A DNA stretch of 41,587 nucleotides, taken from contig NZ_MWQK01000009.1 of NCBI RefSeq assembly GCF_002210425.1, positions 1 through 41,587 of the forward strand, written 5' to 3'. The DNA comes from Fibrobacter sp. UWB2 (GTDB taxonomy: Bacteria > Fibrobacterota > Fibrobacteria > Fibrobacterales > Fibrobacteraceae). Positions 28,915 to 41,587 of this stretch are shown one piece after another; positions within the stretch are counted from its first letter, which is position 1, and every line of letters starts with the position of its first letter. The translations under genes were made by a program, and so were the position numbers. Under the pieces are notes generated by a model. The model searched no databases. It was not told the origin of the DNA and saw nothing but the letters and a program-made list of their open reading frames with translations.

Positions 28915-30801
28915 CTAGTCTAACTTGTACTTGTCTTTCGCGGCCTCGAGTTCGGCACTCGCCTTTTCCCAAGCGGCGTAAAGTTCTTCTGTCAGCTTCT
29001 TGTTTTCGTCCATGTCTTTAGCAATGGACGTAATCGCATTGCCGTCGCCCGATTCCGAGGCGGCCACAAGTTTTGCTTCAAGTTCGCCGCCAATGGCTTC
29101 GGCCTTCGCAATTTCAGCTTCGAGGCGGGCAGTCTCTTTTTCAAGCGGCTTGATGACCTTGCTGCGTTCGGCAATGTAGTCTGCTCGCGCCCTGCGGTCT
29201 TCCTTGGTGCGCGGCGTCGAACTCACGGGCTTGTCGTCCGTGACGTCGATATTCGAGACCTTGATATTTGCAGAGTTCGAGCCGCCCGGCTTCTTTTCAG
29301 AAGCCCAGCCAACCTTTTCAAGGAAGTCCGCATAAGTGCCTTCGAAGATACGGCACTTACCACCGTCGAAGACGATGAGGCGCGTCGCAAAAGCGTGCAG
29401 CAGTTCTTCGTCATGCGTCACGACAAGTGCGGTACCATCGTAATCTTCAAGCGCATCAATCAAGCTCTCGATGCTTTCCATGTCCAAGTGGTTCGTCGGT
29501 TCGTCAAGCAAAAGCATGTTGCTTTCGTTCGCCAAAATCTTGCCTAACAGCACACGACTGCGTTCACCACCCGAAAGCACCTTGACCTTCTTCATGGCAG
29601 TATCGCCGCTGAACATCATCACGCCCGCGAGGCTACGCGCACGGCTCTTCTGTGACACATCCGCAATCGCACTTGCAATTTCTTCTTCGACCGTATTTTC
29701 AAGATTCAGACGGTTGATGTTCGTCTGACCAAAGTAATTTATCTTGAGGTTCGGGTTGTAATTGATTGTACCCTGGGTCGGTTCAAATTCCTTGGCAATC
29801 AAGTTCAAAAGCGTCGTTTTACCGCGACCATTCGGGCCGATAATTGCAATGCGGTCGCCCTTGAACACTTCCAACTCGAGGTCCGAAATCAGCTCCGGAC
29901 CGTAGCCGTTTTCGTTCTTGTACGCAAAAGAAAGCCCATGAATCTGGAGCATGCGCTTGCCCGGGAATTCCGCGTTCTTGAAATTGAAATCCAAGTTGCG
30001 TTCGTGCGTGAGGCGCTCGCCCGTCGCAAGCTTTGCAGCCGCCTTGATTTTTGACTGCACCATCGCAGCTTTCGCCGCCTTGTAACGGAAGCGTTCGATA
30101 ACACGCTCGAGCTGTTCCTTTTTACGCTGCTCGTTTTCTTGCGTGCGCATTGCCACTTCTTCTTCTTCGGCAATCGTCTCGCGCAGCTTTTCGACCGTCC
30201 CCTTGACCTTGCGCATCTTGTGGCGGTGAATCCCCACCGTATGCGTGCAGACCTCGTCCATAAAGTGGTGGTCATGCGTAATCAAGAGCACTTCGCCCTT
30301 CCACGCGCGCAAAAAGCGGCTAAGCCAGCGCATGGAAACAATGTCCAGATAGTTCGTCGGTTCGTCCAGCAAAAGCATGTCCGGTTCCGACGCCAAGACC
30401 TTCGCCAAATTCAAACGGATCTGGAAACCACCCGACAAAAGCATCGGGTCTTTCTGCATGCTCTCTTCGTCAAAGCCAAGACCAAAGAGAATCGCCTCGA
30501 CCTTGTGTTCTTCGAGCCAGCCGTCCTCATTCACCTTGAGCACGCTGCACGCCTCTTCGTGAACCGTCGGGTGCGTGAACTTGATGTGCTGCTGCAAATA
30601 GCCAATCGTATAGCCCTTCGGGATGTCGATGTTACCGCCATCGAGACATTCCTGCCCGAGAATCATCTTGAAAAGAGTCGATTTGCCGCAACCGTTGCGA
30701 CCAACAAGACCGACGCGTTCATGGTCGGCAACAAGCATGCTAGCGCCGTCCAAAAGGACCTGCATGCCAAAAGACTTAGATACATTCTGAATTTGAATCA
30801 C
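28915..30801 (-). CDS. ABC-F family ATPase, EttA/YheS-like
   Basis: A 628-aa soluble twin-ATPase that by family acts on ribosomes. NBD1: GRNGCGKST, LSGGFQIRL, LLLLDEPTNYLD. NBD2: GPNGRGKTT, LSGGERSRV, LLLLDEPTNHLDMES. The linker between them is long and charged (EEEEVAMRTQENEQRKKEQ), and the C-terminus is a Lys/Glu-rich coiled coil (~residues 550-628), as in YheS-type members. The frame stays open to 30900, but that stretch runs through the terminator of the upstream gene. The natural start MIQIQNVSKSFG uses GTG at 30801, which has a TATCTTTG box ending 5 nt upstream and no Shine-Dalgarno. Second ABC-F gene in the window; paralogue of the one at 14640-16496. Confidence 0.88.
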   Translation of the reverse strand: MIQIQNVSKSFGMQVLLDGASMLVADHERVGLVGRNGCGKSTLFKMILGQECLDGGNIDIPKGYTIGYLQQHIKFTHPTVHEEACSVLKVNEDGWLEEHKVEAILFGLGFDEESMQKDPMLLSGGFQIRLNLAKVLASEPDMLLLDEPTNYLDIVSMRWLSRFLRAWKGEVLLITHDHHFMDEVCTHTVGIHRHKMRKVKGTVEKLRETIAEEEEVAMRTQENEQRKKEQLERVIERFRYKAAKAAMVQSKIKAAAKLATGERLTHERNLDFNFKNAEFPGKRMLQIHGLSFAYKNENGYGPELISDLELEVFKGDRIAIIGPNGRGKTTLLNLIAKEFEPTQGTINYNPNLKINYFGQTNINRLNLENTVEEEIASAIADVSQKSRARSLAGVMMFSGDTAMKKVKVLSGGERSRVLLGKILANESNMLLLDEPTNHLDMESIESLIDALEDYDGTALVVTHDEELLHAFATRLIVFDGGKCRIFEGTYADFLEKVGWASEKKPGGSNSANIKVSNIDVTDDKPVSSTPRTKEDRRARADYIAERSKVIKPLEKETARLEAEIAKAEAIGGELEAKLVAASESGDGNAITSIAKDMDENKKLTEELYAAWEKASAELEAAKDKYKLD

Positions 30802-30806
30802 GAAAC

Positions 30807-30814
30807 CAAAGATA
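30807..30814 (-). promoter_or_regulatory. Promoter box of the EttA/YheS-like gene, fused to a terminator T-run
   Basis: TTTTTTTATCTTTG: the T-run of the upstream terminator is continuous with a full TAnnTTTG match that ends 5 nt before the GTG at 30801. Confidence 0.5.
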
Positions 30815-30846
30815 AAAAAAGCGACCCCCACGCTAATGGGAGCCGC
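30815..30846 (-). terminator. Terminator of the 379-aa exported protein gene
   Basis: On the minus strand GCGGCTCCC pairs with GGGGGTCGC (two G-U pairs) around an 8-nt loop, followed by seven T. Confidence 0.82.
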
Positions 30847-30869
30847 TCCTAAAATCAGGCGACCAGAGA

Positions 30870-32009
30870 TTACTTCCAGTCGAGAACTTCGCGGTTCCAA
30901 GAAACCGGAGAACCCGTCATGATCAATTTCTTATCAAAGCCGCTGCCATTGCTCATCTGCTTTGCAATAAAGCCAGACTTGTACATGGTAGCCTTCTTGC
31001 CGTCCTTGTTCTTGCCGTCATAGACGATGTCAAAGCCGACCCATCTGTAAAGGACAAAGCCGAAGAAGTTTCTGCGGTATTCCCAAGAGTCGCTCGTGAT
31101 GATGAGCTTCTTCACCTTGTAGCCCTTCACGAGAGCCTTGAGTTCCTTTTCAATCTTCGGACCCTTCCAAGTCTGCTTCGGGAGGTCAGCCATCTTGACC
31201 GGAGTCGGGCCACGCTTGATAGCTTCCTGAACTTCTTCGATCGGAGACTTGCCCACGATTTCCTTGAAGTCAGTCACTTCAACTTCGTAGAACTTTTCCG
31301 GGAAGGCAACGCCCTTGTAAACGCCCTGATCGATATAGCCGTATCCTTCCGGCACATAGAAGAACTTGCCGCCCTTCTTGTAAACGAAAGCCATTGCAAA
31401 AGCGTTCTTGTCGTTGTACTTCATGATGGAGCCAAAGCGGTATGCGCGCACGAATTCGCTTTCACCCTGTTCCTTGTCAGACGGGCCAATCCAGCGGGAC
31501 TTGAGATTTCTGATATCGTTGTCCTTCGTGATCATGTAGACTTCAGCCGGCAATTCGCCTTCGACCATCGTCTTGGTGGTATCGTCGATCTTCTTCGGAT
31601 CCCAGTCATACACGAGAGCCTTCGGGGTATTCGGGGTCGGGCCATCGACAACCGGCTTGCCAAAGCACTTCACGCACTTTGCAACATGGTCCTTCCAGAA
31701 GACGACATTGCTGTCGGCATCCCTATAAAGAACGTCGTAGTTCAAGACATCCGGTTCGCGTTCTTCGGCAAGTTCATCCGTGTGGATAAACACCTTGATG
31801 ATGCCCTTTTCCTTGTTGTCCTTCCAGTGGTAGAAAACGCGTTCGAGGTAACGGTTAGAAATATCGGCGCCCACCGGGAGTTCGCTTCTAGCCATCGTCG
31901 GCTTGTCAGAAGCAGGGGCCAAAGCGGCATCGGCAGGGACGTCATCCTGAGCATTCGCCATGGAGAAGGCGAAAAGTCCTGCGGCAAGAGTCTTGAGAAT
32001 CAGTTTCAT
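30870..32009 (-). CDS. Exported protein of unknown function (379 aa)
   Basis: A secreted or periplasmic protein with a clear signal peptide (MKLILKTLAAGLFAFSMANA, cleavage before QDD). I do not recognise a domain. The mature part begins with an Ala/Pro/Asp-rich spacer and continues with mixed alpha/beta sequence rich in Lys, Asp, Trp and Tyr (YHWKDNKEKGIIKVFIHTDEL, WKDHVAKCVKCFGKPV with a CxxC pair, SRWIGPSDKEQGE). The CxxC could be a disulphide or metal site. The ATG at 32009 is preferred over the upstream in-frame ATG at 32033 because it starts the signal peptide and has AAGG upstream. It has its own terminator. A 10-bp-phased TCAACA triplet lies about 150 nt upstream. Confidence 0.8.
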   Translation of the reverse strand: MKLILKTLAAGLFAFSMANAQDDVPADAALAPASDKPTMARSELPVGADISNRYLERVFYHWKDNKEKGIIKVFIHTDELAEEREPDVLNYDVLYRDADSNVVFWKDHVAKCVKCFGKPVVDGPTPNTPKALVYDWDPKKIDDTTKTMVEGELPAEVYMITKDNDIRNLKSRWIGPSDKEQGESEFVRAYRFGSIMKYNDKNAFAMAFVYKKGGKFFYVPEGYGYIDQGVYKGVAFPEKFYEVEVTDFKEIVGKSPIEEVQEAIKRGPTPVKMADLPKQTWKGPKIEKELKALVKGYKVKKLIITSDSWEYRRNFFGFVLYRWVGFDIVYDGKNKDGKKATMYKSGFIAKQMSNGSGFDKKLIMTGSPVSWNREVLDWK

Positions 32010-32159
32010 TCCATTCAACCTTACGGGTTCCAAATGACAAACGACATTCCCGGCGAACCCACATTAGCCAAGAATGCGCATTTTTTTGAACAATGTAAAT
32101 AAAAAAGAAACGTTTGGCAATAAATTATCACGAAATTACTACAAAAAACTTTAAAGCCT

Positions 32160-32189
32160 TCAACAGTTTTCAACATCTATCAACACCCA
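32160..32189. repeat. Three TCAACA repeats at exact 10-bp spacing
   Basis: TCAACAGTTT, TCAACATCTA, TCAACACCCA begin at 32160, 32170 and 32180, one helical turn apart. A fourth copy in inverse orientation (TGTTGA) is at 32278-32283. The 32034-32293 spacer holds no gene; it is AT-rich and lies upstream of the 379-aa exported protein gene. Confidence 0.6.
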
Positions 32190-32293
32190 TTGTAAATAAA
32201 ACAAGGGTATAAAGAAAACCCCGCGTGTAACCCGTTAAGATTCAAAGAGTTACTTTCTGCGAGGCTTATTCTTAAACTGTTGATAAGTTGTGG

Positions 32294-35200
32294 TTATTTA
32301 TTTCCGTGGCGGCGAACGCCCAAGTTGAACGTTTCGTCATACTTCCCGACAACATTTGCGTCGGAGAAAATCTTGAACCGGAGTTTTGCAATGAACACTC
32401 CCGTCCCGACAAAACGTCCCTTGTCGCTGCGGGCATCCCACATCAAGAACACGTTGCCCGGATTGTCCACGCAGTCCGTCCCAAATATCGCCTTGTCGTT
32501 GCAAGCCACCTCGCCCGTCTTGGAATTGACAAAATGCCCAAGGCTCGAGAAGTATTCCACTTCCCACTTGATCTTGACCTTCGAAAGGGCAACATCGCGG
32601 GATTCACTGGTATTCAGCAATAACGATTTCCCGACTTCACTCAAGTCAAATGTAATCAGTTCGCCCGGAAGACCCGTTTCCGCAATAACATCCTTGATAT
32701 CCTTCGACACATCAACACGCACAGGCGCAATATCGTCCTTGTACGGCCACTTTTCCGGAGTCCAGTTTGCAGGGTCTACACCCACAACGCCCGGCGATTC
32801 CACACCAACACGCTGCTCGCCTTCAATACGGCGCCACGGGTTGTCCACATGCGGCACGTTTCCGTTCAGGTCCGGCAAGACACCCGGAATCAGGCGCACC
32901 ATAAAGCCCACATCCGGTAATATTGTGAAATCGGTCTTCGTAAAGAGCACGTCGTAGTAATTGCTCTTTCGAGAAGGCGTAATAGACATGACAGACAGAA
33001 GCGACGGATCCACCAATTGACCAGTCTTGTCCTTGAATTCCAGGAACTGCACCCCGTTCAGCAAATCGGCCTGAGTCGCTTCGCTAATGTACACAGTCAG
33101 CTTGTTGACAGTGCTAGATATAGGCTTCACAATCGGCTTGTCTATAAGGATAGCGCCCATGCGGTCTTCAATGGCAAGGCCATCCAGGCTAAGCTGGGTC
33201 ATCTGGCCCGTTTCCTTGTCCATGTACGTGTAATGGTACCTGAAGGATCCCTGGTAAAGTTCCTTATCGCCCCCTGTAAAGACCTTGTTCTGCAAGCTAT
33301 CCGCATGGATGGCAAGGCTCTGTTCAGTCTGCATCAGCAAAGCGACATTTTCCACAGACGCGACCGTGCGCCAGTCATCGCTACCAAACGTCCATGCAAT
33401 CGTATCCGGAATCGTCTCACCAAACGGCTTGTTGAACACAACCGCAATACTATCAAGCACGCCATCGCCATTGCGGTCATAAGCTTCGCCCAAACTTGCA
33501 AACGGCACAGGCGGTTCCTTGAAGTGGATGTTCTTCCACGCAATAACGTTTGCGACACCGCTTCCAGAGATTTCAAAGCTAGCATTCGTCACCGAAGAAT
33601 CGCCAACCACGTAGAACTTCGCGACACCCGTAGAATCGGTCATCAGCTTGTTCACGCGCTGCTTCTTTTCGTCCAGGAAACTTATCGGGAACGATGTCGT
33701 CAAGTCAAGCACCGCAAAGCAGTCCTTGCAGAGGTTCGTAATGTAGAACACGCCCACCTGCAAAGGCACCGTATCCGGGTAAGCCACATGAGTCAAAAGC
33801 GTATCATTTGCACTTCCGTCAAACGGGAGGCCACGCAAGCTGTAACCCGTCGGGTCAAACACCTTGATGGAATCCGGGCTGAAGAACACATCCACAAAAG
33901 CGATATCCGGAAGCGGATAAGCCGGCACCGTAAAGTACACTTCGCTAGACTGCGTCATGTCGCTAGCCAAGAAGAACTGCAACATGTAGGAGCCCGGCGC
34001 CAAGGAACGCTTGCGCACAATTTCCACCGTGTCAATCACAAAACCTGCCATATTCTCGTCAATGTTGATTCCCGCAATCGAGCCCGGCAAAAGTTCCATG
34101 CCGGTAGACGGAATCCTCTCGTCATCGCCAAAAAGTACAAACGAGGACTGTGCAGGCATCGTATCGATCTTAGACGTGCTAGAAACATCGCAACTGATAG
34201 ATTCATCCATCAACAGCTGCAAAATGCTGTACTTGATTGTTCCATCGGTCGTCTTTTCTTCCACCGGGTAATACGTCTTTTGCGTCTGCAAGTTGATGGA
34301 CGTGCGCATCTTGAAATTCGATCCTGTCGCATTGCGTTCCGAGAAGAAAATGTGGAACGGGTATTCACGGCCTTCGACAAGCTTCAACGACGGGTCATTC
34401 TGGCCAATCGTATCCAAGTTCACGCCGCCCTCGACAGGGCTATGGCAACCGCCGATATCCACGACAAGGCGGTTATTGATAAACACCCACACATCGTCAT
34501 CGCCACGGAATTCAAAGTACTGGCCTTTCACGTACTTGAACTGTGCCGAGACCTTCATTGCAAAGCTGTAGTTGTGACGGCATCCCTGAATATTCCAGTC
34601 AAATTTCGGATTCAAGACCGTCTTTGCCGAATCGAGGTACTGCAAGTCATCAATCGGGTAGAACCCCGGATTAATCGTGTCATTGCAATCGCCTTCTTCG
34701 TTCGTGAAGTCCGCCTGCCAAAAGCCTTCTTCATCAAGCGTAAGGCTAATATCGCGACAGACACCATTCTTGTATTCATTACCAGCAGCATCCTTCGCCA
34801 CCACCTGCGGGATAAACCACTTCTCGATTTCACGAGCGGCAGAACACTGTGCCCACGGATAGACAAGCGAGTCCACACGCGCAGGGGCGCCATTCACAAG
34901 CGTATCCTGCACCATGCCCGGCACATGCCCCGAGCAAGTCTTCAACTCCGCAATTTCGCCATTCTGGTTCAAGCCCATAATAGTCGTATAGGCATTACCC
35001 TGGTAAATACCGCCAAAGTCTACGTCAATGCTATCGTCATGCGATTCACCCGCCCAGTCCACAACGAGCGCCGAAATCTTGAGAGACGGGCAAATGCCGA
35101 GAATGCCCGGATAGCGTGTCGTATCGCTCGGCTCGTAACGCTGTTTCGGATTCGGGTAAACCCAGACCGTATCGTGCAACGCCATGAGAGAATCCAAGGA

Positions 35201-36571
35201 AATCAGAGAATCAAGATTGTCGAGTTCTGCAACAACCCCCTTGCCACCATAGCGCTCCATACCAAAAGTCTGCTTAAAGTAAACGCGCCAATCTGTCGCA
35301 TGCTTGTAGACCGTACCCGTGTACCAGCCACACGTATCCGCAAGCGGGCCCATCTTGATAACATCACCCGTAGACTCAATCACCACTGAAGGCGACTGGT
35401 TTTCCCACGGGCTCTTCAAGCGGATAACCTTGGGCTCCGGCGGGTAAAATGCCAATTCAAACGTCTCGAGCGAAGTCGAGGTATAGAACCACGTCTCGTA
35501 AATACCGGTCGGGAAAAAGTCACTTGCACGCGGGCGCAACGAATCCTGGAAATACGGATGCTGGGGCCAGTCATTGCTACCGCGCAGAATCTGCACTGTC
35601 GACATCTGCGAATTCCACTGGGCAGAACCCACAAGCGAATCCGCAAAATCGATATGGCGCCAGTACTTGTACTCGCCTTCGGAACTAAGCCCCGTCGGCG
35701 CATTCAAAATGTTGTTGTCAATCTTGATATAGAACGTGCTATCACGGAATGTCGTGTTCGTACGCCACGGGTGGTAAATGTGCAATCTACGAGTCGGGTC
35801 AAAGCATTCGCCCGTCGTCCCGATTGTAGTAGAGACCACAGGATTGGGGAGCGTACCGTCGACATACAACGTATCCCCTAGCTGCAAGTACCCGGCAAAG
35901 TCCACAGAAGAATCCTTACTTGCAGGGACCGTGTACCACGGCGCCTTGTAACGCACAAAATAGGCCATCAAAAGCGGGTTTGACTCAATCATCGAAGGCG
36001 TAAGCGCACCGTAGAACCAGCCGCACTTTTCCTCATCGCCCTCGTTAAAGCGCATCAGCACGGAATCCGCACCGAAAATCATCTGTGGCAACACCTTGTT
36101 GCCCCACGGGCTCTTGAACCAGACAATCTTGGAACCCGGCGCCATGAAAGACTTTTTGTAGGACTTGTCCTTCGTATCGGTATAAAGCCAGATTTCCGTT
36201 TCCGTACCAAAGAAAGCAGTAATACGAGTCTTCCCGCCCTCGGTCCAGGAGACGCAATTGTTGTTATTGTAGTTGTAGTCGTCGGTATTCGGGCAGGCCT
36301 TGAATTCAAAATCCTGCCAGTCCTGGAAATCGGCAACCGTCTTGCCCGTCCATGTGTAAGAATACCAGTTATCGCCTTCGCTTTGCATCATTGTCCGGGA
36401 ATTAGCGCCAAAACCCGGATTGTAATCCGTCACGCCACCGACAATATGCGGAGTATAGCCTGAAGCAGTCGCATCATCGCGAAAAGGCGACTGTAAATGA
36501 ATTGTCAAATCCGCCCACGCAGAGACAGTCAGCAGTAACGAGGCGACAATACCCAAACAACCGTGTTTCAT
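32294..36571 (-). CDS. Fibro-slime domain surface protein B (1425 aa)
   Basis: A giant exported protein with a signal peptide (to about residue 20, ...VSAWA) and no membrane segment. The N-terminal ~480 residues contain repeated 'KSPWxN ... CGW(F/Y)xG' modules (FKSPWGNKVLPQMIFG near 150, LKSPWENQSPSVVIES near 385). The fibro-slime domain, a PA14-like beta fold, is at about 675-765: FKYVKGQYFEFRGDDDVWVF, NNRLVVDIGG, NLDTIGQNDPSLKL, YPFHIFFSERNATGSNF. Ig-like parts follow, and the end (GTGVFIAKLRFKIFSDA) resembles a FlgD-like Ig module. Such proteins are linked to the outer surface and cellulose adhesion in Fibrobacter. It is a paralogue of the gene at 36731-41107, with a conserved 5' leader. 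Ribosome binding site GAGGGTG. Confidence 0.85.
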   Translation of the reverse strand: MKHGCLGIVASLLLTVSAWADLTIHLQSPFRDDATASGYTPHIVGGVTDYNPGFGANSRTMMQSEGDNWYSYTWTGKTVADFQDWQDFEFKACPNTDDYNYNNNNCVSWTEGGKTRITAFFGTETEIWLYTDTKDKSYKKSFMAPGSKIVWFKSPWGNKVLPQMIFGADSVLMRFNEGDEEKCGWFYGALTPSMIESNPLLMAYFVRYKAPWYTVPASKDSSVDFAGYLQLGDTLYVDGTLPNPVVSTTIGTTGECFDPTRRLHIYHPWRTNTTFRDSTFYIKIDNNILNAPTGLSSEGEYKYWRHIDFADSLVGSAQWNSQMSTVQILRGSNDWPQHPYFQDSLRPRASDFFPTGIYETWFYTSTSLETFELAFYPPEPKVIRLKSPWENQSPSVVIESTGDVIKMGPLADTCGWYTGTVYKHATDWRVYFKQTFGMERYGGKGVVAELDNLDSLISLDSLMALHDTVWVYPNPKQRYEPSDTTRYPGILGICPSLKISALVVDWAGESHDDSIDVDFGGIYQGNAYTTIMGLNQNGEIAELKTCSGHVPGMVQDTLVNGAPARVDSLVYPWAQCSAAREIEKWFIPQVVAKDAAGNEYKNGVCRDISLTLDEEGFWQADFTNEEGDCNDTINPGFYPIDDLQYLDSAKTVLNPKFDWNIQGCRHNYSFAMKVSAQFKYVKGQYFEFRGDDDVWVFINNRLVVDIGGCHSPVEGGVNLDTIGQNDPSLKLVEGREYPFHIFFSERNATGSNFKMRTSINLQTQKTYYPVEEKTTDGTIKYSILQLLMDESISCDVSSTSKIDTMPAQSSFVLFGDDERIPSTGMELLPGSIAGINIDENMAGFVIDTVEIVRKRSLAPGSYMLQFFLASDMTQSSEVYFTVPAYPLPDIAFVDVFFSPDSIKVFDPTGYSLRGLPFDGSANDTLLTHVAYPDTVPLQVGVFYITNLCKDCFAVLDLTTSFPISFLDEKKQRVNKLMTDSTGVAKFYVVGDSSVTNASFEISGSGVANVIAWKNIHFKEPPVPFASLGEAYDRNGDGVLDSIAVVFNKPFGETIPDTIAWTFGSDDWRTVASVENVALLMQTEQSLAIHADSLQNKVFTGGDKELYQGSFRYHYTYMDKETGQMTQLSLDGLAIEDRMGAILIDKPIVKPISSTVNKLTVYISEATQADLLNGVQFLEFKDKTGQLVDPSLLSVMSITPSRKSNYYDVLFTKTDFTILPDVGFMVRLIPGVLPDLNGNVPHVDNPWRRIEGEQRVGVESPGVVGVDPANWTPEKWPYKDDIAPVRVDVSKDIKDVIAETGLPGELITFDLSEVGKSLLLNTSESRDVALSKVKIKWEVEYFSSLGHFVNSKTGEVACNDKAIFGTDCVDNPGNVFLMWDARSDKGRFVGTGVFIAKLRFKIFSDANVVGKYDETFNLGVRRHGNK

Positions 36572-36605
36572 TCAACACCCTCTTTATTCTGCCCACACTT
36601 TAGTT

Positions 36606-36636
36606 TAAAGATATATTCAAGACAAAGATTTTCAAA
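36606..36636 (-). promoter_or_regulatory. Bacteroidetes-type promoter of fibro-slime gene B
   Basis: On the minus strand TTTG (36633-36636), 19 nt, TATCTTTA (36606-36613). Leader about 30 nt with a GAGGG ribosome binding site. Confidence 0.6.
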
Positions 36637-36647
36637 ACGCTATAAGT

Positions 36648-36680
36648 AAAAAAAAATAAAACCCCGCACCATGGCGGGGT
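36648..36680 (-). terminator. Terminator of fibro-slime gene A
   Basis: ACCCCGC / GCGGGGT stem with a 6-nt loop, followed on the minus strand by TTTATTTTTTTTT. Confidence 0.85.
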
Positions 36681-36692
36681 AATACATCTGTC

Positions 36693-36713
36693 ATGCCCGA
36701 CCTGATCGGGCAT
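36693..36713. repeat. ATGCCCGA palindromic repeat after fibro-slime gene A
   Basis: ATGCCCGA, 5-nt loop, TCGGGCAT, preceded by TGTC and followed by CTCC. Same hairpin family as at 24379, 26949 and 28855. Confidence 0.7.
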
Positions 36714-36730
36714 CTCCTTCTTGAACTGAA

Positions 36731-39700
36731 TTACTTGATCTTCTTTGTTCCGGTCTTGTACTTTTCGTTGCGGCGGATACCGAACGTGAACGTTTCTTCG
36801 CCCTTGCCCACGACTTCCTTGTCCGAGAAAATCTTGAACTTGAACTTCGCGATGTACACGCCCGTTCCAACCATGCGGCCCTTGTCACTCATGGCATCCC
36901 ATTCGAAGAACATGTTGCCCGCATTCTGGATACAGTCCGTACCAAAAATAGTCTTGTCGTTGCAAGCGAACTCGCCCTTGACCCAGTTCACGTACTGGCC
37001 CAAGCTCGAGAAGAACTCGATGTCCCACTTCACCTTGACCTTGCTCAAGACTTCATTGTATTCAGGAGTACCCGGCTTCAAATTACCGGCGCCAAGCACC
37101 TGGGTCGTCGCATAATCATCAAGCTGGAACTTGACCAACACGCCCGGCAAGCCCTTCTCCTGGATAATCTCTTTCAGGGTCAGGTCCTTGTCGACGCGGA
37201 GCGGAATCACATCGTTCGTATCACCCGGCCACGGATTTTCGTCAAACATACCCGGATTGACCGTCACGACCTTCGGACGTTCCGTCTCGAGCGGCTGTTC
37301 GCCTTCAATACGGCGCCACGGATTCAATTCGTGCGGCGTATTGCCATTCTTGTCCGGCAAGACTCCCGGAATCAGGCGGATCTGGAAACCAACTTCCGGA
37401 GCAATGAAATCGATAGTCTTTCTGAACATCAAGTCATAGTAATCGCTTTCACCGTTAGGAGTAGCACCGACCAGCAAGAACTTCGACTGATCGACAATTT
37501 CTCCATTCTTGTCCTTCAGCTCGATAAACACGTTAGAAGTGAGGTAACTGCTATTGCAAGCTTCGGAGAGCTTGATGGTCACCTTGACTGCATTGTCCGA
37601 GATAATCTTGAGCATCGGCTTTTCAAGGATGATTGCACCAATCTTATCCTGGATCTTCGAGTAAAGCGTTTCAGATTCCTGAGTCGAGCCCGTCGCTTCA
37701 TCCAGGTAAATGTAATGGTAGCGGAAATTACCTTCCACAATGTTCTTCGAATCGCCTGTGAAGACAGAATCAATCAAGCTATCTGCCGTGATGACGACCG
37801 TAGAATCGTTCTTGACGAAGTTTCCGATATCTTCAAAAGAACTGTACTCGTGCCAATCCTTGCTGCCAAAGTTCCAGGCAATCACATCGAGGTCGTGTTC
37901 TGCAAGAGCGCCATATTCGAACGGGATATAGATACTGTCTGCAACACCATCGCCATTGCGGTCGTAGATGCCACCCGTCTTGGCCAGCGGCACTTCCGGA
38001 TCCTTGAAGTTGATGTTGTCCCACTTGAGCGAATTCTTGACACCGCTAATGCCCACGACGCTGAACGAAGCACCGCTGATAGCGCCTTCACCCACCACGT
38101 AGAAGCGGGCACGGCCGGTTTCATCCGTTTCAACCGTGTTAATCTGCTGGTCGAGTTCGTTATAGAACGTCAAACGTGCATCTGTCGGCTTCAAGTCCAG
38201 CACGACAAAGCAGTCCGTGCAGATTTCGCCCATGTAAGTCACCATGATTTCGAGATACGTCATTTCCGGATAGCGCACGTGAGTCATCAAGGTATCGTTC
38301 GTGCCCGTGATAATCTTTTCACCTCTCAAGTTCTTGCCCGTCGGGTCAAAAGTCTTGAGGCTGCCATCGGAACTTTCGTTGAACACGTCCACAAACGCGA
38401 TTTCCGGCTTTTCGTATTCAGGAACCGTAAATTCGTAGGCGTCGTTCAAGCCCATATCGCTTTCATAGTAGAAGTACAGAACATACGTACCCGGCTGCAA
38501 CGAGCGCTGGCGCTTGATTTCATCGATATTGATCGAGAAACTGGACCTGTCATCGTTAATCAGGATACCGCCGTAGTTCAAACCGACACTCAGTTCTGCC
38601 GCTTCGGAGAAATTACCGCCATCGAGGTAGAATACAGACGGGGCATCTGTCGTATCGACCAGTGCCTTGGCATTCGGGTCGCAGCTGACAGCTTCGGCAT
38701 CCATCTTGAGTCTCAAGATACCCGTGATATCGTTCTTCTTGGTATCGTTGATTGTCGTAAGATAGGTGTTCTGCTTCTGCAAATTGATGGAGGTACGCAT
38801 CTTGAAGTTCGACCCCGTCGCATTGCGTTCGGCGTAGAAGATATGGAACGGATATTCACGACCTTCCTTCAAGGCGAGCGTCGGATCGTTCTGACCAATC
38901 GTATCAAGATTTACAGCGCCTTCCACCTTTTCATGCACACCGCCGATATCCACTACGAGCCTGTTATTGACATAAACCCACACGTCGTCGTCACCGCGGA
39001 ATTCAAAATACTGACCCTTCACATACTTGAAGCTTGCGGAGACCGCCATGGTATAGCCATAGTTGTGCTTGCAAGTGTCATTCTTGCCGTTGGCCTCGCC
39101 AGCCCACTTGACCCATCCTTCGACATCCCAGTCAAATTTCGGATTTTTAATAGTTTTGGCAGAATCCAAATATTCAAAATTATCCAGCGGGAAAAATCCC
39201 GGGCTTACCGGGTCATTGCAGTCACCCGATTCATTCGTGTAGTCGGCATACCAGAACCCTTCGTTGTCAAGCTGGAGTTCAATGTCCTGGCAGCGGGAGT
39301 TCGTATATTCCTTGCCACCGACCTTGGCAACAACTTCCGGCACAAACCACTTGTCAATCTCGTGACCTGCAGCGCACTTGCTCCACGGGAAATCTGTAGA
39401 ATCCACTCGTGCCGGGCGACCATTTACAAGCGTCTGCTTCACCATGCCCGTTACAGTTCCGGCCTGGCAAGAACTATCCGTCCCGACCTTAGTATAGGCA
39501 TTACCGCCAAACACATGGCCAAAGTCAATATCAATACTGTCGTGATGGCTTTCACCAGCCCAGTCAATAAGCATTGCAGAAATCTTCATGCTCGGGCAAT
39601 CGCCAAGACGGCCAACCGGGAACTTGGACGAAGCATCCGGACGGCTATAGCTCTTGTTCTTCTCGGACGGGAAAACCCAAGCGGTATCACGAGTGCTCAG

Positions 39701-41107
39701 CAAGGAATCCAAATTGATCAAAAGTTCAACTTCGTTGCCTTCACGGACAACGCCCTGCATCGAGTACTTCTCAAGGCCAAAGCTCTGCTTGAAATAAATT
39801 TTCCAATCAGAGGCGTGCTTGTAATACGTACCTTCGAACCAGCCACAGGTATCCTTCGAGAATGTCGACATCCTCACGACATCATTATTATTGTCGCTAA
39901 CCACAAACGAAGTCGGCGTATTCTTCCACGGGCTAAGCAGGCGCACGACCTTGCGTTCGAGCGGTGCATAAGAAATATCAACATCTTCCATTGTGGAGCT
40001 CGCGAAGAACCAAGCTTCATAAACACCAGACGGGAACAAGTCGCTTGCAGCCGGGCGATTCTTATCACTGAAATAGTGAATCTTGATATTTTCATTGAAA
40101 CTACGGGTGAACTGCACCTTTGCATCTGCAGATTTCCAGGCCGCTGTAGAAACAAGAGAATCCGAGAAAGTCACAGAAAGCCAGTACTTATAATCCTTGT
40201 CTAAAGAAAGCGGTTCCTGTGCAGGTCCTGCAATAGTCGTATCTGCACCACGGATTGAATCCTGTCTCACACCATCTATACTGATATAAATCGAGCTATC
40301 GCGATAAATGCTGTTGGTACGCCACGGATTATAAACATGCAACGTTCGGCTATTGTCGAAGCAATCGCCAACAGTACCCATATTCGTCCCGACAGAAGGC
40401 GTTGCCAGAGTACCATCAACATAGATAGTATCCTTTTTCTTCTCGAGGGCAGCACTCAATTCGATAATCTGCTTCTTGTCTGCAGGGACGCTCAACCAAG
40501 GCGCATTATTACGATAGAAAACAGCCGTGCGGAGAATATGCCTATCCAGCATATCCTGAGTAAGACCTGCATAGAACCAGCCACACTTCGTCTTGTCTTC
40601 AGAGAAATGCATCAGGACCGTATCTTGCCCAAAGACCATCTGCGGCAAAGCCTTATTGCCCCACGGGCTCTTGAACCAGACGACCTTGGATCCCGGAGCC
40701 ACAAAGGACTTCGTATAAGTTCCCGTCTCGGCATCCGTATAAATCCAGACTTCCTTGCTTCCATCAAAGAAATCACGGAAATTAAAAGTGTCGCCTTCCG
40801 CCCAGTCTACGCAAGTAAGATTACTGGTCGTGCCTTCCGGGCATGCCTTGATGCTAAACGATTCTGTCGCCAAAAAGTCAGAAAGGGACGATTTCCATGT
40901 ATAAGAATACCAGTTGTCACCTTCATCCTTCATTATAGTAGATGAAGTCGCCCCGACATCGGGCTTAACAGCATTCCCAACAACATGAGGAATATATTTA
41001 GAAGTAGCAGCTACGCCAAAAGGAGACTGCAAATGAACAGTCAAATCAGCAAAAGCCGAAGACGCAACAGCGCCAAAAATACAAAAAGCCAAATACAGGT
41101 GTCTCAT
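36731..41107 (-). CDS. Fibro-slime domain surface protein A (1458 aa)
   Basis: Paralogue of protein B with the same architecture throughout: signal peptide (to about residue 20, ...SSAFA), the opening DLTVHLQSPFG, 'KSPWGNKALPQMVFGQD' module near 147 and 'LSPWKNTPTSFVVSD' near 391, the segment IDWAGESHHDSIDIDFG near 515, the fibro-slime PA14-like domain at about 690-775 (FKYVKGQYFEFRGDDDVWVY, NNRLVVDIGGVH, YPFHIFYAERNATGSNF), Ig-like parts, and a C-terminal FlgD-like segment (GTGVYIAKFKFKIFSDK). It ends in a short basic tail. Ribosome binding site AAGGTGAG. It has its own promoter and terminator, so the tandem genes are separate units. Probably displayed on the cell surface for adhesion to plant fibre; that role is inferred from the family. 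Confidence 0.87.
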   Translation of the reverse strand: MRHLYLAFCIFGAVASSAFADLTVHLQSPFGVAATSKYIPHVVGNAVKPDVGATSSTIMKDEGDNWYSYTWKSSLSDFLATESFSIKACPEGTTSNLTCVDWAEGDTFNFRDFFDGSKEVWIYTDAETGTYTKSFVAPGSKVVWFKSPWGNKALPQMVFGQDTVLMHFSEDKTKCGWFYAGLTQDMLDRHILRTAVFYRNNAPWLSVPADKKQIIELSAALEKKKDTIYVDGTLATPSVGTNMGTVGDCFDNSRTLHVYNPWRTNSIYRDSSIYISIDGVRQDSIRGADTTIAGPAQEPLSLDKDYKYWLSVTFSDSLVSTAAWKSADAKVQFTRSFNENIKIHYFSDKNRPAASDLFPSGVYEAWFFASSTMEDVDISYAPLERKVVRLLSPWKNTPTSFVVSDNNNDVVRMSTFSKDTCGWFEGTYYKHASDWKIYFKQSFGLEKYSMQGVVREGNEVELLINLDSLLSTRDTAWVFPSEKNKSYSRPDASSKFPVGRLGDCPSMKISAMLIDWAGESHHDSIDIDFGHVFGGNAYTKVGTDSSCQAGTVTGMVKQTLVNGRPARVDSTDFPWSKCAAGHEIDKWFVPEVVAKVGGKEYTNSRCQDIELQLDNEGFWYADYTNESGDCNDPVSPGFFPLDNFEYLDSAKTIKNPKFDWDVEGWVKWAGEANGKNDTCKHNYGYTMAVSASFKYVKGQYFEFRGDDDVWVYVNNRLVVDIGGVHEKVEGAVNLDTIGQNDPTLALKEGREYPFHIFYAERNATGSNFKMRTSINLQKQNTYLTTINDTKKNDITGILRLKMDAEAVSCDPNAKALVDTTDAPSVFYLDGGNFSEAAELSVGLNYGGILINDDRSSFSINIDEIKRQRSLQPGTYVLYFYYESDMGLNDAYEFTVPEYEKPEIAFVDVFNESSDGSLKTFDPTGKNLRGEKIITGTNDTLMTHVRYPEMTYLEIMVTYMGEICTDCFVVLDLKPTDARLTFYNELDQQINTVETDETGRARFYVVGEGAISGASFSVVGISGVKNSLKWDNINFKDPEVPLAKTGGIYDRNGDGVADSIYIPFEYGALAEHDLDVIAWNFGSKDWHEYSSFEDIGNFVKNDSTVVITADSLIDSVFTGDSKNIVEGNFRYHYIYLDEATGSTQESETLYSKIQDKIGAIILEKPMLKIISDNAVKVTIKLSEACNSSYLTSNVFIELKDKNGEIVDQSKFLLVGATPNGESDYYDLMFRKTIDFIAPEVGFQIRLIPGVLPDKNGNTPHELNPWRRIEGEQPLETERPKVVTVNPGMFDENPWPGDTNDVIPLRVDKDLTLKEIIQEKGLPGVLVKFQLDDYATTQVLGAGNLKPGTPEYNEVLSKVKVKWDIEFFSSLGQYVNWVKGEFACNDKTIFGTDCIQNAGNMFFEWDAMSDKGRMVGTGVYIAKFKFKIFSDKEVVGKGEETFTFGIRRNEKYKTGTKKIK

Positions 41108-41146
41108 ATAACACTCACCTTTTAGTTATTCCACACCCGTAAGTTT

Positions 41147-41177
41147 AAATTTACATCTTTTTTTGTAAAAAAACAAA
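41147..41177 (-). promoter_or_regulatory. Bacteroidetes-type promoter of fibro-slime gene A
   Basis: On the minus strand TTTG (41174-41177), 19 nt, TAAATTTA (41147-41154). The region just downstream, TTTAAACT...GTGTGG...AATAA...AAAGG, is shared with the leader of fibro-slime gene B. Confidence 0.6.
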
Positions 41178-41179
41178 AA

Positions 41180-41498
41180 TATTAAAAAAAAAAGAAATCT
41201 TTTTCTGCAAAATTATGTATAGAAAATCCATTTCGCAAATTCCGCGAATAAAGCCCCCGAAAAAGACCACTAAACAAGCACAAACAAATTAACAAACTAG
41301 GTTTAAAACAAATTCATTTACGAGTTTCATAACCTGTAGAATGAATACCTTCACATATCAAGAGACGGCATCAAAAGGTGTCTTTAGGACAAACGCAATT
41401 TAGGGGATAATTGGGGAGTGCCACGGAAATCGCACTTGCCCCGGACCACAGCGCATCGCGTGATTCATGGAAGCGGCGGACGGTGCGCACAAAAACGA
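41180..41498. other. Intergenic spacer between fibro-slime gene A and the rRNA operon
   Basis: No gene is supported here. The part to about 41400 is AT-rich. The part 41400-41490 is GC-rich and contains one clear hairpin: GGGG AGTGC ... GCACT tg CCCC (41413-41442). No tRNA cloverleaf is recognisable. Confidence 0.6.
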
Positions 41499-41530
41499 AG
41501 AGGCCCCCCGCCATGTCGGCAGGGGGCCTC
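41491..41530 (-). terminator. rRNA operon terminator
   Basis: On the minus strand GAGGCCCCCTGCC pairs with GGCGGGGGGCCTC (one mismatch) and is followed by TTCGTTTTT, directly after the 5S sequence. Very stable, as usual for rRNA operons. Confidence 0.88.
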
Positions 41531-41534
41531 GAGA

Positions 41535-41587
41535 ATCCAGCGGCGACCTACTCTCCCGGGCCCGGGGGCCAGGTACCATCGGCGATC
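41535..41587 (-). rRNA. rrf: 5S ribosomal RNA, 3' part
   Basis: The minus strand reads GCCGATGGTACC, TGGCCCCCGGGCCCGGGAGA, GTAGGTCGCCGCTGG, matching the 3' third of bacterial 5S rRNA (conserved GCCGATGGTA and GAGAGTAGG). The 5' part and the rest of the rRNA operon lie outside the window. The 3' end is placed by analogy with the 14 nt that follow GAGAGTAGG in E. coli. Confidence 0.88.

Follow-up and report, generated by a model that had tools for sequence, protein, structure and literature searches.

Old tandem fibro-slime paralogues of Fibrobacter sp. UWB2 with N-terminal modules of predicted carbohydrate-binding-module fold

Fibrobacter adheres to cellulose but lacks a cellulosome; how it does so is a long-standing question for which fibro-slime proteins are among the foremost candidates. 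F. succinogenes S85 is reported to contain 10 fibro-slime genes, including the clusters Fisuc_1326/1327 and Fisuc_1474/1475 (PMC3079729), and most F. succinogenes strains contain 8 to 10 (PMC6291624). Fibro-slime duplications in the class and one member with a flgD domain have also been described (PMC4704652). Antibodies against fibro-slime protein lowered cellulose adhesion by 62% (PMC4668043, citing Gong and colleagues), and the seven of the ten S85 proteins that were measured all occurred in the extracellular medium, some of them also in the outer membrane (PMC4668043). Fisuc_1979 was previously known as the 180-kDa cellulose-binding protein (PMC4619616). Here, two neighboring fibro-slime genes of Fibrobacter sp. 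UWB2, designated A and B, are analyzed. They lie in a 41,587-nucleotide stretch of DNA (hereafter the window), which is contig C9 of a 3.53-Mb genome in 15 contigs.

A and B belong to this known adhesin family, and fibro-slime adhesins as such are not new. They share with the S85 proteins, as far as these are presented in PMC3079729, the TIGR02148/PA14 domain, large size, neighboring copies, a surface or extracellular placing (predicted for A and B) and a proposed family role in cellulose adhesion. The S85 proteins are accounted for there by the fibro-slime/PA14 domain alone, whereas A and B contain modules resembling carbohydrate-binding modules (CBMs), a cysteine pair and a shared leader, which that account leaves unmentioned. 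The N-terminal modules are likewise undescribed in the passages on Fibrobacter fibro-slime proteins in the papers cited here. In the open-licence literature of PubMed Central, no paper combining fibro-slime and starch-binding was found, and none of the titles listed concerned the structure of the N-terminal modules. As far as literature searches go, the CBM25/26-like nature of the module, its spread across the phylum, its cysteine pair, the age and asymmetry of the A/B duplication and the leader element are new. Expression on cellulose versus glucose, suggested as a check in the initial annotation of this DNA, is already published for the S85 family with a divided outcome: 8 of the 10 genes were upregulated on cellulose in batch culture (PMC4668043), and the majority were constitutive in growth-rate-controlled work, with Fisuc_1979, 1474 and 0377 among the highest-expressed (PMC6204037).

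We consider it fairly probable that A and B arose by an old tandem duplication of one outer-surface adhesin that is exported by the type IX secretion system (T9SS), binds wall glycans rather than starch through its modules and holds the cell to the fiber. According to this proposal, an ancestral adhesin gene, often located just downstream of an rRNA operon, would have been duplicated, promoter and leader included, in the ancestor of one Fibrobacter clade, after which A was conserved and B diverged, most of all in its first module (M1). Each protein would use a signal peptide and then cross the outer membrane through the type IX system by means of a C-terminal immunoglobulin (Ig)-like domain. 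It would display, from the N- to the C-terminus, four CBM25/26-like β-modules (M1–M4), a PA14/fibro-slime domain and a stalk of β domains. The modules that contain a CGW motif would be clamped by a disulfide to the segment that follows, and the modules would bind plant-cell-wall glycans.

Gene B (36731–41107; 1458 residues) lies upstream of gene A (32294–36571; 1425 residues). Both genes are encoded on the minus strand, as are the promoter-like regions, leaders, hairpins, modules, domains and rRNA end given below by window coordinates, and their open reading frames (ORFs) were confirmed at these positions. The two proteins align end to end with 741 identities over 1470 columns (50%; 1441 bits by BLASTP), which bears out the earlier claim of a whole-length alignment. 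An A-like match at 1e-30 is present in 72 of the 80 genomes of the genus. The age of the duplication was addressed with a tree of 84 proteins (17 A, 14 B, 3 outgroup paralogues and 50 relatives, mostly from single-copy genomes), obtained by a quick LG+G4 search in which long branches were flagged and 17 of 81 inner branches had support below 80. The A and B proteins each form a single clade, and the two clades are sisters (Shimodaira–Hasegawa-like approximate likelihood-ratio support of 100). A and B are thus old tandem paralogues, as computed directly from this tree. The stem branch of B is ∼3.5-fold longer than that of A (0.66 versus 0.19). In a comparison of 10 orthologs each, similarity is lower among B orthologs than among A orthologs in every compared domain except the signal peptide and the C-terminus, and the contrast is strongest in M1 (59% among B versus 87% among A). 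By this measure, B appears as the divergent copy, and its tip module M1 is the most variable. In another Fibrobacter clade, G049 (locus L064) and G013 (L072) contain a tandem pair of the same gene that arose independently among the relatives in the tree. The two copies of G065 lie on different contigs.

The leaders of the two genes, TTTAAACTAAAGTGTGGGCAGAATAAAGAGGGTG in A and TTTAAACTTACGGGTGTGGAATAACTAAAAGGTG in B, are also alike. The promoter-like region and leader of B (41108–41172) contain TTTACA, TTTAAACT, GGTGTGGAATAAC and AAAAGGTG, and those of A (36572–36635) contain TTGAAA, TATATCTTTAAACT, GTGTGGG and AATAAAGAGG. The A–B leader alignment scores 34, compared with a best score of 28 and 30 for either gene against 193 sampled upstream regions, and a score of 34 was reached by 7 of 4000 random pairs of background leaders. 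This background was taken from mechanically listed ORFs of at least 200 residues in the window and in 20 sampled stretches of the genome. GTGTGG occurs in 1 of the 193 regions. The combinations GTGTGG-AATAA-AGG and TTTAAACT-GTGTGG are each found at exactly two sites in the 3.53-Mb genome, in both cases at A and B (0 and 1 matches for the reversed-pattern controls); because the patterns were derived from these very sites, the counts describe specificity and are no independent test. The specificity is confined to the genome of origin, since a looser pattern matches in 44 of the 80 genus genomes, many times elsewhere, and a control pattern matches equally often in several of them.

Among orthologs, with start codons set by rule and 8 of 81 unanchored rows dropped (seven other relatives and one B, the latter of which does carry the motif), GTGTGG is found within 60 nt upstream of the start in 17/17 A, 13/13 B and 0/43 other leaders. 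GTGTGG followed by AAWAA is found in 12/17, 13/13 and 0/43 leaders, respectively. The initial annotation had listed TTTAAACT, GTGTGG, AATAA and AAAGG as shared elements; among these, GTGTGG is invariant. TTTAAACT was rejected as a conserved element since TTTAAAC is present in 6/17 A, 3/13 B and 0/43 other leaders, and the last element differs between the copies (AAAGAGG in A and AAAAGG in B). Flanked by a TATAT-type box and the ribosome-binding region, GTGTGG probably lies within a short 5′ leader. Its presence in all anchored A and B leaders and in none of the 43 others, together with the sister clades, supports the earlier view that the duplication included control sequence, and the best reading is that the element would have been gained in the A+B ancestor, copied with the gene and retained in both copies. 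Separate origin of a shared regulator or translation site in A and B, instead of inheritance, is improbable. The fixation of GTGTGG amid variable flanks implies a function, as that explanation would have it, and the looser pattern does occur at other places in many relatives; however, the genome of origin has its only two sites at A and B, and a motif present in both sister clades and no other leader is what a single gain before the duplication predicts. This clade-specific element offers a small target for studying the control of two duplicated adhesin genes.

The claim that each copy has its own promoter is supported by position. An intrinsic-terminator-like hairpin lies between B and A (36661–36680, read 36680–36661; terminator scan), and a promoter scan places a promoter-like site upstream of each gene, which would fit separate transcription of A and B. 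Neither class of site is enriched in the scans (12 promoter-like sites versus a shuffle mean of 10.3, and 11 terminators versus 10.9). An Rfam search of 32000–41587 for a structured leader gave nothing at the gathering score. Upstream of B (41164–41200), a tract rich in T (ATTTTTGTTTTTTTACA-like) is kept in nearly all of the 14 B orthologs shown and may be an UP-type promoter element.

The N-terminal half of both proteins is built from modules that the initial annotation could not name. A predicted model of A residues 20–488 (26 sequences; predicted local distance difference test score 82.6, predicted template modeling score 0.70) contains four β-modules with the motifs LQSPF (M1), FKSPWGN...CGWF (M2), YHPWRTN (M3) and LKSPWEN...CGWY (M4). 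M1 occupies 36146–36514 in A and 40703–41050 in B. M2, which has the pattern FKSPWGN...CGWF...C in both proteins, occupies 35798–36136 and 40355–40693, respectively, and the PWRTN-type M3 occupies 35444–35797 and 39965–40354. M4 contains SPWEN...CGWY in A (35108–35440) and SPWKN...CGWF in B (39617–39961). M2 and M4 keep their SPW and CGW residues with little or no variation.

Predicted M4 adopts the β-sandwich fold of CBM25 and CBM26. It superimposes on CBM25 (2c3x) with a Z of 10.6 and a root-mean-square deviation (rmsd) of 2.1 for 85 of 94 residues and on CBM26 (2c3h) with a Z of 10.1 (VIA-align). Predicted M2 matches CBM41 structures (6az5, Z 8.7 with 10% identity; 2j72, Z 8.3 with 3% identity), the best structural match of M1 is a CBM20 (2z0b, Z 8.2), and M3 is covered only by two-module alignments with high rmsd. 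The top Foldseek match of the N-terminal model is CBM26 (6b15, E 3.8e-6). At the sequence level, M2 and M4 are related to each other (hhalign, 97.7%), and M1 is tied at 98.5% to the opening modules of fibro-slime proteins from distant Fibrobacterota (M4 reaches 9.1% with these). All six of the distant M1 modules match Pfam CBM26 at 4e-6 to 1.1e-4 (22.7–27.3 bits, all below the cut-off). They are the modules of the 6 of 167 genomes with a CBM26 match at 1e-3 and were chosen for that match, and five of them built the profile that gave 98.5%; they therefore point to a bridge between M1 and CBM26, not to its frequency. A phmmer search with one distant M1 returned agglutinins (E 0.42) and R. bromii Amy12 (E 8.8), and these matches were not used.

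The question of a name for the modules is thus partly answered by predicted fold for M4 (CBM25/CBM26) and M2 (CBM41) and through distant homologues for M1 (CBM26). Structure prediction, the check proposed earlier, recovered CBM-family folds; at the sequence level, the family cut-offs were not reached. Several results count against a CBM assignment and against glycan binding by the modules. None of the eight A and B modules passes a Pfam cut-off. The sole PF16738 match is B M1 at 14.9 bits (E 0.029; gathering cut-off 28.1), and the only other Pfam match is a zinc finger in the same module at E 0.2. By sequence, M1 is weakly related to M4 (12.3%) and M2 (17.0%), and no link from M3 to M2 or M4 was found. 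Profile searches of Protein Data Bank sequences gave one chance match for M4 (E 1.1), none for M2 and no CBM. The site between the PW and GW motifs is presumably where CBM25/26 would hold a sugar-stacking Trp, and as judged by a text pattern rather than by superposition, a Trp at this place is found in 0 of 128 M2/M4-type modules of the genus. Glycan binding by M1–M4 stays a prediction because of this absence. Counting against the proposal as a whole, Fisuc_1979, the best-studied cellulose-binding member, looks by size and signal length like another paralogue of the genome (L097, 1551 residues) and not like A or B.

Outside the genus, the Trp between PW and GW is found in 0/6 modules of other genera of the family, 7/9 of family f5, 2/6 of f4 and 1/12 of f7 (one unparsed). 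In M1, it is absent from all 26 modules, in contrast to W(W/Y)PG in four of five aligned distant M1 modules. Since the Trp is absent in the genus and present in distant modules, the fold appears to have been kept and the starch site lost en route to Fibrobacter. These counts argue against true starch- or glycogen-binding CBM25/26 modules with α-glucan ligands. We regard such modules as very unlikely, although the fold matches CBM25/26/41, several of whose matched structures were solved with α-glucans, and although the distant M1 modules combine W(W/Y)PG with matches to CBM26. No CBM26 match exceeds the cut-off in any of the 167 genomes of the phylum; B. subtilis served as the positive control. 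The modules also differ from CBM25/26 in their sub-threshold scores, in the CGW...C pair of M2 and M4 and in standing beside a fibro-slime domain rather than an amylase, and M2 resembles the α-glucan-binding CBM41 modules in predicted fold without a match at the sequence level.

The missing Trp also speaks for an alternative, possible but rather doubtful, in which the N-terminal modules are spacers or protein–protein contacts and the fibro-slime/PA14 domain alone binds glycan. Also in its favor, conservation among A orthologs is highest in the fibro-slime domain (94% versus 78–87% for the modules), and fibro-slime proteins have been placed in a proposed multi-protein complex (PMC6851124). However, the modules find their best structural matches in carbohydrate-binding modules, their SPW and CGW residues vary little or not at all in M2 and M4, and the module is repeated in other Fibrobacterota, with three copies in one frame.

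A disulfide is suggested by the cysteines of the CGW modules. Among 161 unique modules, 152 contain both the CGW Cys and a Cys in the tail (sought by a loose text pattern), nine contain neither and none contains only one; related sequences are treated as separate in this count, with 128 of the 161 modules from the genus. The two residues are kept or lost together, and a disulfide would probably clamp the CGW modules to the segment behind them. The nine Cys-less modules come from two lineages, seven from family f5 and two from genome G085. Most of those in f5 are not the last module before the fibro-slime domain, and module position may explain part of the absence. Of the two in G085, the one at L140 has a fibro-slime match behind it, whereas none is in view behind the one at L153. 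More tentatively, and as a proposal that we would put below an even chance, the PW...CGW module could represent an unclassified Fibrobacterota CBM family from the CBM25/26 line, in which the Trp was lost, the Cys clamp was gained and the ligand became cellulose or wall glycans. It would then be the missing binding part of fibro-slime adhesins.

The module is spread widely in the phylum. The M4 profile matches in 106 of 167 genomes (80 of the 167 belong to the genus Fibrobacter) and in 18 of 40 genera. In the genome of origin, it matches at eight places, in five proteins at 1e-3 or better and one weakly. At loci sampled within the family and outside it (15 genomes), some of which overlap the same gene, a fibro-slime domain stands behind the module in 33 of 34 frames; the exception is L153. 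One fibro-slime protein of genome G164 (contig C238; L142 and L159), with a frame of 2709 residues, contains three detected tandem Cys-less modules, of which at least two retain the Trp. A CBM-fold N-terminal half found in much of the phylum provides defined, expressible fragments for binding tests.

The remainder of each protein bears on display and export. The fibro-slime/PA14 domain (34289–34576 in A and 38780–39070 in B) is recognized in both proteins by TIGR02148 (138.6 and 141.1 bits; curated cut-off 45) and by PF07691 (40.1 and 40.6 bits; gathering cut-off 24). As judged by eye, both proteins start with a putative signal peptide. The C-terminal domain of A (32297–32761) resembles the T9SS C-terminal domain of PorU at the level of fold (6za2; Z 7.7, rmsd 3.7, 102 aligned residues), and that of B (36734–37240) is a sub-threshold FlgD-Ig-like domain. 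The other matches of the C-terminal model, mostly Ig-rich proteins and glycosidases, were set aside, and the PorU match alone was used, with caution. The genome encodes SprA (1478.6 bits, over the cut-off) and a PorU-like protein (358.8 bits). T9SS export has been proposed for lignocellulose-degrading enzymes of S85 (PMC6851124). A and B may resemble T9SS cargo in their C-terminal Ig-like domain, their host encodes SprA and a PorU-like protein, and they are probably exported by T9SS through that domain.

This export route and display have their own counterevidence. A Z below 8, as for the PorU match, may reflect a common arrangement only, so the likeness to T9SS cargo is at the common-fold level. 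The PorU-like protein scores under the cut-off of 420, and the same search gives sub-cut-off matches in two of the 14 genomes used as controls (Thermotoga maritima and Haloferax volcanii). Neither the A nor the B C-terminus belongs to the 52 TIGR04183 tails found in the genome at 1e-3. In the second predicted model, the fibro-slime part has low confidence. A TIGR04183 tail over the cut-off (26.0 bits; C7:104701–104865) ends another fibro-slime paralogue of the genome (L098; 734 residues, frame 756), which supports T9SS export of one member of the family.

The locus appears to adjoin an rRNA operon. The window ends in a probable 5S rRNA 3′ end cut by the contig end (41531–41587), recognized by eye from its likeness to L018 (5S at 68–183); the fragment is short and is not called as 5S by Rfam. 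It is followed by a strong terminator-like hairpin (41500–41530; terminator scan). A 5S rRNA lies upstream of the gene in 4 of 10 sources searched (L018, L045, L067 and L075). None was called in the other six, namely the window, L092 (583 bases of upstream sequence available), L016 (2.3 kb, upstream of B), L024 (2.0 kb), L074 and L076. By hand count, 36 of the 40 fetched loci have the start of the gene or its upstream copy no more than ∼1.7 kb from a contig end (exceptions L074, L076, L078 and L079), as expected if assemblies break at rRNA operons. In the one-contig genome G144, from another genus of the family, a single short ORF separates 16S-23S-5S from a full-length relative, behind which lies an ATP-binding cassette (ABC)-ATPase-like ORF. 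L165 and L166, which cover L076 and L078 more widely, contain no rRNA. Placing just downstream of an rRNA operon is thus common but not universal. In G144, a second fibro-slime gene lies on the opposite side of the same rRNA operon (L163 is among the loci showing rRNA adjacency).

Nine fibro-slime matches are present in the genome of origin, including a second neighboring pair on contig C3. A is adjoined (28915–32033) by a 387-residue protein that matches no Pfam family and by an ATPase that contains two ABC_tran domains, and ABC-ATPase-like ORFs with a similar start lie downstream of the gene in G144 and G038 as well. In F. intestinalis ATCC 43854, a thiamine pyrophosphate riboswitch (Rfam RF00059, 55.2 bits; L024:6511–6616) is located downstream of a fibro-slime gene.

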